Part shown: positions 47,470 to 51,192 of the stretch, piece by piece
Position numbering within the stretch: the stretch's first letter is position 1
How the letters are laid out: each line of letters begins with the position of its first letter
DNA from: Oxynema aestuarii AP17
GTDB taxonomy: Bacteria > Cyanobacteriota > Cyanobacteriia > Cyanobacteriales > Laspinemataceae
DNA: 64,000 bases
Assembly: GCF_012295525.1 (NCBI RefSeq)
Contig: NZ_CP051167.1
Span: 1,488,001-1,552,000, forward strand
Direction of reading: 5' to 3'
The notes under the pieces: generated by a model
Database searches by the model: none
What the model saw: the letters and a program-made list of their open reading frames with translations, nothing else
Told to the model about the DNA's origin: nothing
Translations under genes and position numbers: made by a program

Positions 47470-48846
47470 ATGTTTATTGCTCTACTCAAACAAGCTTTAT
47501 TTGCCTTTAAGCGAGATGCTCCAGGTCGCCGCACGCGGATGAACCAGTGGTTTAAATGGCTCGCTCCCGGTTTATTTGTCAAGCGTTGGGTTCTCATCAG
47601 TGCGGGTGGGGTCTTTTTGGCCTTGTTGGGATTGTCAATTTGGATTAAATTGACCCCGATTTATTACGGGATTCAGTTAATCGAGACCTTTTTAGCGACA
47701 ATTACCAGTCTCGTTCCCAGTTATATTAGCGGTCCGCTCGTGATGCTCGGCGGCATCGTTTTGATTTTGTGGGGACAAACTCGCACCGTCGGCTCGATTA
47801 CAGAAGTATTGCGTCCGGGAAGCGATCGCGAACTGGTAGACGTACTGATCGACCACCGCCGCCTCAGTCGTGGCCCGAGGATCGTGGCGATCGGTGGCGG
47901 GACGGGGCTTTCGACCTTATTGCGCGGGTTGAAACAATATAGCGCCAATATTACGGCGATCGTCACCGTCGCCGACGATGGCGGCTCTTCCGGGCGCCTG
48001 CGTCGCGAAAATCGCGTGTTGCCCCCGGGAGATATTCGCAACTGTTTGGCGGCGTTGGCGGCGGAAGAAAAGTTATTGACGGAGTTATTTCAATATCGTT
48101 TTAGAGCCGGGGAAGGACTAACCGGACATAGTTTCGGTAATTTATTCCTGACGGCGATGATGGATATTACCGGAGATTTGGAACGGGCGGCGGCGGCGAG
48201 TTCTCAAGTGTTGGCCATACGCGGTCAGGTGCTCCCCGCGACCCTTTGTGACGTTCATTTATGGGCTGAATTGGCCGACGGGCGCAAAATCGAAGGCGAA
48301 TCGCGCATCAGCGAAGCTGGGGGCAATATTGTCAAAATTGGTTGCATTCCGGGCAATCCCCCGGCTTTACCGAAAGCGGTGCAGGCGATTCGCGAGGCGG
48401 ATTTGATTATTATGGGACCCGGAAGCCTTTACACGAGCGTGATTCCCAATTTGTTAGTGCCGGAAATTGCGGAGGCGATCGCCTGTCGGGACGTTCCTAA
48501 AATTTACGTGTGCAATATCATGACCCAACCGGGGGAAACCCAAGGGTACACGGTCTCGGATCACGTCAAGGCGATCGATCGCGCCTGCGGTCGTCCTCTG
48601 TTCGATTCGGTCTTAGCTCAGAGTCAAGTCCCGTCCGCTCAAGCCCTGATTCGCTACGCTCAAGATAATTCCCATCCGGTCTTTCTCGATCGCGAAGATT
48701 TGGCCAATTTGGGCCGGCAGGTCGTCGTCGCTAATGTTATGGATGAAGATCCGCAAACGGGTTACGTCCGCCATAATTCCCAATTCTTGGGACGAGTGTT
48801 GTTACGCTGGTATGCCCGGGTTCAGGGAATAGCGAGTAAAGAGTAA
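47470..48846 (+). CDS. YvcK-family protein (CofD-like) with membrane anchor
   Basis: A 458-residue protein. Two membrane helices (about 40-60 and 81-101) precede the CofD-like domain, with [17 protein letters not shown] near 139-155, [27 protein letters not shown] and [13 protein letters not shown]. YvcK proteins bind UDP-sugars and affect cell shape and carbon use in other bacteria. The membrane-anchored form is usual in cyanobacteria. The ATG at 47470 keeps the conserved L-K-Q-A-L start. Confidence 0.9.
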
Positions 48847-48967: not shown

Positions 48968-49438
48968 ATGAATCCAGACGTTAGAAAGCACAAAAAATCT
49001 GAATTGTGGTTGGCGGATGCAGAGGCGACGCGATCGCTGGGCAAGCGCTTGGGCGAACGGTGTCCGGCGGGTACGGTAATTTTGCTCGAAGGGGATCTCG
49101 GTGCGGGCAAAACAACCCTCGTTCAAGGGATTGGAGAAGGGTTGGGACTCGATGAGGCGATCGTCAGTCCGACATTTACCTTGATTGTGGAATATCTCGA
49201 CGGTCGCCTGCCACTGTACCACCTCGATTTATATCGTTTGGAACCGAAAGATATTCCGAGTTTGAATTTAGAAAGTTATTGGGAAGGGATCGAGGTCGAA
49301 CCGGGGATCGTGGCGATCGAATGGTCGGCCCGATTGCCCTATCTCCCTCCCGACTATTTGCGGATTGCCCTCACCCACTGCGATCGCGGCAGATCGGCCA
49401 CTATTGAGAAGGTTGGGGATTGGCAAGAGGTCATTTGA
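48968..49438 (+). CDS. tsaE: tRNA threonylcarbamoyladenosine biosynthesis ATPase TsaE
   Basis: A 156-residue P-loop ATPase needed for making t6A37 in tRNAs reading ANN codons. Walker A is GDLGAGKTTL (42-51), followed by SPTFTLIVEYL, YHLDLYRLE and the Walker-B-like VAIEWSARLP. Length and order are those of the family. The ATG at 48968 follows an AGCG rather than a strong ribosome binding site. Confidence 0.95.
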   Translation: MNPDVRKHKKSELWLADAEATRSLGKRLGERCPAGTVILLEGDLGAGKTTLVQGIGEGLGLDEAIVSPTFTLIVEYLDGRLPLYHLDLYRLEPKDIPSLNLESYWEGIEVEPGIVAIEWSARLPYLPPDYLRIALTHCDRGRSATIEKVGDWQEVI

Positions 49439-49577: not shown

Positions 49578-50247
49578 TCAACCAAAAGTCAAGGCTTTGG
49601 CGCGCACGGTGTCGTCAAATTGGCCGCGATTGTAAACAACTTGGCCGACGACCGGGGTCATGACACTTGGTTGTCTTAAATTTCCGAATGGGCGGCGGGG
49701 TCGGTGCGATCGCGGTCTTCGGTGTGAAGGGCAATCAGGCGATCGCCACGAGTAAATCACCTTTCATCGACCCATAAAAATTTTAATCCCCGGTGTGCGA
49801 TTGGCTTCGCGCAAGTCCGGTAAATTCTCCGGCGTGGCGCCGATAAAAAAGCCGCTTCTTTCCCTAATTGACCAAATATTTCTCGGACGCCAGTTTGAGT
49901 TTGTCGTCGAGAATGGCTTGCGTAATGGTCAACGGGCGGGTGTTGGGCATTTCCAGAAAGGACGTGACGCCGCCTCTAGCACAAACTCGGGTGTCGGTGG
50001 TGAGGTCTTCTTTATATTCCAAACCCGATTCTCGGAAATGAACTTGCGGGTCGATGGCCCCGGGCAACAAAGTCAAACCCTCGGCGTCAATCACTTGAGA
50101 TGGGGCATCATCTTGTTCGGACCAGGTAATCTGGGGAGCAATCCGAACGATTTGCCCGCCACGGATTTCGACATCTCCGAGCAAAACTTCACCGTCGGGC
50201 TGGAGGATACGGGCATTGCGGATCGCTCAACAGGGATGACCACTCAT
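49578..50247 (-). pseudogene. pyrC: decayed dihydroorotase
   Basis: Read leftward from an ATG at 50247, fragments of one dihydroorotase follow in order but in different frames. First comes a start broken by a TGA after six codons. Next are [20 protein letters not shown] and [19 protein letters not shown] (metal-site D-x-H region), [12 protein letters not shown] and [10 protein letters not shown] before a stop. In another frame are [20 protein letters not shown] and IKIFMG; then MKGDLLV; then DRLIALHTEDRDRTDPAAHSE. After a large gap comes the family C-terminus VMTPVVGQVVYNRGQFDD and TVRAKALTFG before TGA at 49578. The total is about 670 bases against about 1300 for an intact gene, so the central half is deleted. 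A working copy must be elsewhere, since the enzyme is needed for pyrimidines. Confidence 0.9.
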
Positions 50248-50559: not shown

Positions 50560-51192
50560 ATGACTCGTGCGCAGGAACCCGTGTCCGATTCTAAATTGCA
50601 TTCCGGCGATCGCGCAGACGCCGAATCCCGTCAAGAAAATCCCTGGATAGAGGGACTCAAAACGATTGGCTTGAGTGCGGTTTTAGCGTTAGGAATCCGC
50701 CATTTCGTGGCTGAAGCTCGCTACATCCCTTCAGGTTCGATGCTTCCGACGCTCCAGATTAACGATCGCCTGATTGTCGATAAACTGGTTTATCGCTTCA
50801 AAGAACCTCAACGGGGTGACATTATCGTTTTTTCGCCGACCGAAGCGCTGCAACGACAAAATTTTAAGGACGCCTTCATCAAACGGGTGATCGGTTTACC
50901 GGGAGAAACCATAGAAGTCAAGGGCGGGCGGGTTTACGTCAACGATCGCCCCTTGCGCGAAAGCTACATTGAAGACCGTCCCAATTACCAATACGGTCCG
51001 GTGACCGTCCCGGAGGATTCCTATTTAGTCCTCGGCGACAATCGCAATAACAGTTACGACAGTCATTATTGGGGTTTTGTCCCGCAAGATCGGATTATCG
51101 GTCGGGCGGCGGTTCGCTTCTGGCCCCCCAATCGTCTCGGGGGTCTCGACCCACAACCCCTGTATCCGGTCACTCCGTCGGTGACTCCCTAA
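50560..51192 (+). CDS. lepB: signal peptidase I
   Basis: Removes signal peptides from exported and thylakoid proteins. The 210-residue protein has a short cytosolic N-terminus, one membrane helix (about 34-50), the Ser box [11 protein letters not shown] with catalytic Ser60, the Lys box [12 protein letters not shown] with catalytic Lys108, and [18 protein letters not shown] near the end. It is full length for the cyanobacterial type. Confidence 0.96.

Follow-up and report, generated by a model that had tools for sequence, protein, structure and literature searches.

Here we describe the remnant of a dihydroorotase gene at positions 49578-50247 (minus strand) of a 64,000-nucleotide stretch of the genome of Oxynema aestuarii AP17 (hereafter the window), together with the genomic setting in which it was lost. 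The remnant is a unitary pseudogene of a PRK07575-type dihydroorotase. It is very probably the resident pyrC, a gene for an essential step of pyrimidine synthesis, decayed after gain of a non-orthologous dimeric dihydroorotase (TIGR00856). The pseudogene is ordinary by itself; the interesting part is the recurrent series of states around it. The features of the locus are as follows:

47470-48846, plus strand: yvcK/cofD-like neighbour, syntenic in relatives (named from the resemblance of its ORF)
48968-49438, plus strand: tsaE, syntenic neighbour (TIGR00150; synteny)
49578-50247, minus strand: whole pyrC pseudogene (PRK07575-type dihydroorotase), from ancestral ATG to ancestral stop
50227-50229, minus strand: TGA, premature stop at codon 7 (sequence)
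49867-50223, minus strand: N-terminal block, about 117 codons open in a single frame (PRK07575 profile, E = 5e-42; tblastn)
49770-49857, minus strand: codons ~136-163 (28 residues), in a different frame (frame-aware alignment)
49680-49769, minus strand: short bits of codons ~165-215, shifted in frame twice and missing 12 and 11 codons (frame-aware alignment)
49578-49667, minus strand: C-terminal piece (VMTPVVGQVVYNRGQFDDTVRAKALTFG) past a loss of ~200 codons, with the ancestral stop (tblastn; frame-aware alignment)
50560-51192, plus strand: lepB (signal peptidase I), divergent syntenic neighbour (TIGR02227; synteny)

The ancestral start codon is the ATG at 50247-50245, and the first stop, the TGA at 50229-50227, follows six codons on. 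The N-terminal block then closes at a second stop, an in-frame TAA (49866-49864). A frameshift near 49857 leads into codons ~136-163 and another near 49769 into codons 165-170; near 49749, a further frameshift is accompanied by the loss of 12 codons and followed by a stretch from which 11 codons are missing. At the 3' end, ~200 codons are gone before the last ~25 codons run to the TGA at 49580-49578. With a probable fourth frameshift at this 3' junction, the frame-aware alignment gives a total of three or four. Homology extends along the length of the gene, with the pieces in order between the disabling stops, frameshifts and large deletions. The NCBIfam model PRK07575 (NF005751) matches the N-terminal block (profile search, E = 5e-42), an intact ortholog used as a tblastn query matches the pseudogene with E = 7e-50, both far beyond what chance would give, and the frame-aware alignment agrees with both. 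An earlier note on this DNA had described ordered N- to C-terminal pieces of one dihydroorotase, interrupted by frame changes, premature stops (one of them six codons after the start) and a large internal deletion, and all of these are present. The same note called the decay recent, which is true in a relative sense only: the frame-corrected remnant is 70% identical to the intact PRK07575 gene of a relative (G003), compared with 77% for the intact G003 gene against that of G006 (same family), half of the gene is missing, and far younger cases with only a single frameshift occur in other genomes.

In most relatives, an intact PRK07575 gene sits between tsaE and lepB, divergent from lepB, within the conserved gene order yvcK-tsaE-[pyrC]-lepB; a search at this place had been proposed in the earlier note. 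Because the relatives' intact gene occupies the same position, the remnant is the resident ortholog decayed in situ and not a dead extra copy. The window genome is a single 6.36-Mb contig rated 100% complete. It contains no intact PRK07575 (NF005751) gene, and the pseudogene DNA matches one place only. Duplication of the same gene, one of the two origins put forward earlier, was therefore rejected. Replacement, the other, is borne out: an intact dihydroorotase does exist elsewhere in the genome, although it is not a same-type pyrC but a horizontally acquired member of a distantly related class, the dimeric one (TIGR00856, 524 bits).

This dimeric PyrC, of the E. coli/Burkholderia type, is encoded at G000:C1:4679024-4680052 and is, as far as sequence can tell, the evident replacement for the lost PRK07575 enzyme in the window genome. 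Its motifs HLHLRD, KYYPSGATTNS, LHGEV, LEHITT and GTDSAPH are intact, with the catalytic residues kept, and it would supply dihydroorotase activity in vivo. Its best solved relative is 4LFY, which we take to be a Burkholderia dihydroorotase; structures of the E. coli/Burkholderia-type dimeric enzyme (TIGR00856) are 1XGE and 4LFY. The metal-site motif is DPQVHFRE in PRK07575, with Gln for one metal His, versus HLHLRD in the dimeric enzyme. The window genome also has an intact PRK07369-type paralog (L004 1450-2790; NF005614, 660 bits), a dihydroorotase by its family model, whose motif DLYSHSGEPG is without the first metal His and the substrate Arg of HxHxR. A second match, of ~30% identity and apparently this same paralog, turns up in genomes of both PRK07575 states. 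For all three dihydroorotase-like proteins, activity is predicted. In L004 the paralog adjoins a gene with two phosphoglycerate-mutase-like halves, as it likewise does in several relatives. In proteobacteria, inactive and alternative forms of PyrC are known (PMC2770081, PMC5929573), among them inactive homologs that serve ATCase (PMC5929573).

The two types of gene are close to mutually exclusive across the order. In a first set of 39 relatives, nine of nine genomes with TIGR00856 had PRK07575 broken or absent. The dimeric gene is present in 76 of 293 genomes of the order; among good assemblies, intact PRK07575 occurs in 2 of 72 with the dimeric gene versus 179 of 185 without it (Fisher p = 4e-53), counts taken from match tables and lesion mapping in which 'intact' denotes a near full-length match of expected strength, with a residue-level check for some genomes only. 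At least 24 changes of state of the dimeric gene are needed on an RpoB tree of 77 genomes, and in 17 well-supported independent pairs PRK07575 differed in the opposite direction in 15, showed no difference in two and never differed the same way (p = 6e-5). The exclusion is not absolute: both genes are kept in two order-level genomes (G055 and G061) and in about 18 Nostocaceae, and six good assemblies without the dimeric gene are also without an intact resident gene. Neither intact PRK07575 nor dimeric PyrC is present in the good assemblies G290, G276, G288 and G019, two of which are reduced genomes of 1.4-1.5 Mb; the remaining two may be pyrimidine auxotrophs or users of another enzyme.

Apart from genus g23, the dimeric genes of cyanobacteria fall into a single clade, and this clade conflicts with the species tree. 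PyrC identity reaches 97% in cross-family pairs whose RpoB proteins are 88-90% identical, and in the dimeric-gene tree the AU test rejects monophyly of f5 and of f14, two of the families. Between the window genome and G055, which belongs to another family, dimeric PyrC is 92% and RpoB 85% identical; because the G055 copy comes from a 7.6-kb contig in a fragmented assembly, it may be contamination. A shared origin of the dimeric genes of the window genome (G000) and G002, both of family f1, is compatible with the data (p = 0.48). Three Nostoc plasmids bear a dimeric gene that is 85-86% identical to that of the window genome; one (ATCC 53789) has been typed as conjugative, and two have transposases in the vicinity. 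The insertion sites of the dimeric gene are not homologous between genomes. In the window genome the copy is chromosomal and the nearby ORFs seen include no mobile element, so that delivery by plasmid would be no more than a possibility for this genome. Genus g23 (family f19; L201, L211, L218, L227 and others) has a second dimeric PyrC subtype, only 35-38% identical to that of the window genome, and no PRK07575 gene; this is apparently an independent displacement from a second donor. On a Klebsiella plasmid, pBckp091-1 (L322), a dimeric-type pyrC is clustered with dihydroorotate dehydrogenase and a Zn-dependent hydrolase, an arrangement more suggestive of a cluster for catabolism or salvage than of a pathway-gene copy.

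Coexistence and decay are both seen. The dimeric gene occurs in 25 of 218 genomes of the family to which the Nostoc plasmid strains belong. Chromosomal PRK07575 is still full-length in about 18 of the 25, among them the three plasmid carriers (G384, G397 and G472; matched by coordinates), and broken in seven. In other genomes the damage may be one frameshift (G167), a few lesions (G023, G096, G032 and G090) or so extensive that scraps are left (G026, G059, G075 and G140). Congeners differ in their lesions (G023 versus G090, G032 versus G096, G095 versus G111), and near-identical sisters differ in state: G079 has a full-length match and no dimeric gene, as against G032 and G096, and further sister pairs that differ are G065 and G043, G153 and G075, and G216 and G177. 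No disabling lesion common to the window genome and G002, of the same family, was seen, and the G002 frameshifts fall inside the block that is still open in the window genome. In G378, stops, a frameshift and a large insertion disrupt the chromosomal PRK07575 gene (L372), and the one dihydroorotase of either type that is intact is encoded on a 59-kb contig (C3; L375, L400-L402). This contig, which is partly masked, encodes an integrase and an actin-like (ParM-type) protein and has transposase-like genes beside pyrC; it is likely to be a plasmid.

The dimeric gene appears to travel with little besides itself. In 223 cross-family pairs with at least 85% DNA identity, the shared block typically starts 19 nt ahead of the ATG and closes 3 nt past the stop (medians). 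No shared cargo block surrounds the gene, the flanks not being common between families; the closest pairs are the exception, with homology up to about 1.1 kb upstream. A TAT[AG]AT box is present at -12 to -7 in 53 of 69 distinct upstream sequences of dimeric pyrC (for example L389, L394 and L317; 78 loci), and information content drops upstream of about -16. The same box at -12 precedes 0 of 80 candidate resident-gene starts and 11 of 648 long-ORF starts, with dimeric genes among the latter. The copy in the window genome lacks a good -10 box at -12; the nearest likeness is TATTTT, three bases farther upstream. A -10 element so near the ATG would put the transcription start at or beside the start codon and yield a leaderless message, so that dimeric pyrC is probably a leaderless, self-contained unit of ORF and -10 box.

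These data suggest the following course of events. The dimeric pyrC would arrive horizontally, on plasmids in some lineages, as a nearly self-contained unit whose -10 box 12 nt before the ATG could make it expressible at many sites, a portability that we infer from the shared block and the box. Both enzymes would then coexist for a while, as seen in Nostocaceae. The redundant resident gene would gather stops, frameshifts and deletions and erode in place, many stages of which are seen, until the newcomer alone remained, even on a plasmid-like contig, as in G378. Lesions, synteny, mutual exclusion, gene-tree conflict, plasmid carriage, coexistence and the decay series can each be read from the genomes themselves; the direction of events in each lineage is what we infer from them. 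The case has the marks of displacement in that a non-orthologous gene is present, its distribution is complementary (with the Nostocaceae exceptions) and its gain was horizontal. Neutral redundancy suffices for this course, and redundancy alone would explain the loss.

That the gene is truly intact and its frameshifts are artefacts of sequencing or assembly is next to impossible. Frameshifts and stops are indeed typical of poor base calling, but losses of 12, 11 and ~200 codons cannot be base-calling errors, and these large deletions exclude sequencing error as the cause; moreover, the genome is one complete contig and the locus is broken differently in many independent assemblies that have the dimeric gene. 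It is also very improbable that the PRK07369-type paralog, not the dimeric enzyme, compensates the loss. The paralog is intact here and annotated as a dihydroorotase, but its apparent match is found in both states of the locus and so cannot explain which genomes lose PRK07575, and its motif lacks the first metal His and the Arg, inactive PyrC homologs serving ATCase being known elsewhere (PMC5929573). Equally hard to sustain is an ancestral dimeric PyrC that was lost many times in the order, with PRK07575 surviving in those lineages and no horizontal transfer. The single cyanobacterial clade, g23 apart, would fit such a history, but cross-family pairs that are closer in PyrC than in RpoB, the AU rejection of f5 and f14, the non-homologous insertion sites, the plasmid carriage and the conserved syntenic place of PRK07575 in most genomes all speak against it.

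Two further readings build on displacement of the resident gene by the dimeric one. The swap might have been adaptive and metal-driven, with zinc supply deciding whether the resident or the full binuclear zinc enzyme is favoured, which would add a cause to displacement and not replace it. Such a metal advantage is possible because the resident has Gln for one metal His (DPQVHFRE) whereas the newcomer has a full binuclear site (HLHLRD), and zinc-linked PyrC paralogs are known in proteobacteria (PMC2770081). We nevertheless regard it as rather unlikely: Zur-like boxes are not enriched upstream of the dimeric genes, where the best matches to an assumed consensus were about as in shuffled sequence, and the annotated plasmid neighbourhoods contain no zinc genes. 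More tentatively than the displacement itself, a plasmid-borne leaderless pyrC may have captured the essential step repeatedly, such that the chromosomal gene decays, the carrier becomes indispensable and displacement stabilises the plasmid; we hold this possible, though doubtful, and if it is true G378 is a direct example of plasmid capture.

Recurrent non-orthologous displacement of a gene for an essential step is known in kind and is unusually well resolved here. In the phosphoglycerate mutases (PMC2964296), as in this case, two unlike enzymes serve one essential step, with a patchy and mostly exclusive distribution, horizontal transfer and a few pseudogenes; the mutase paper states that loss has to be preceded by redundancy and leaves it open whether genomes that contain both forms represent early stages. 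By contrast, the single syntenic pyrC locus displays coexistence, decay and absence as a series, and the dihydroorotases are distant homologs (amidohydrolase superfamily), whereas the mutases have unrelated folds. Pseudomonas and other genomes with Zur-regulated PyrC paralogs or inactive PyrC' (PMC2770081) likewise have several dihydroorotase-like genes, one homolog being without the conserved zinc ligands; the alternatives coexist there as regulated paralogs, whereas here they are exclusive outside Nostocaceae and no Zur box was found. The cyanobacterial dimeric PyrC resembles the E. coli/Burkholderia dihydroorotase (TIGR00856) in its full-length match and active-site motifs, and differs in being encoded by a solitary gene preceded by a -10 box at -12, which some strains carry on a plasmid. 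In the open-access literature that was searched, we found no report of pyrC displacement in cyanobacteria.

Displacement of essential genes is usually inferred from end states. The pyrC locus presents the full series (resident only, both genes, newcomer with decaying resident, remnant, gone), and does so about two dozen times over within a single order. Rates, the succession of events and a possible selective advantage can thereby be tested with strains that grow in culture. The locus further points to a route by which an essential function may come to reside on a plasmid, and annotation of cyanobacterial pyrimidine synthesis must expect two unlike dihydroorotases.
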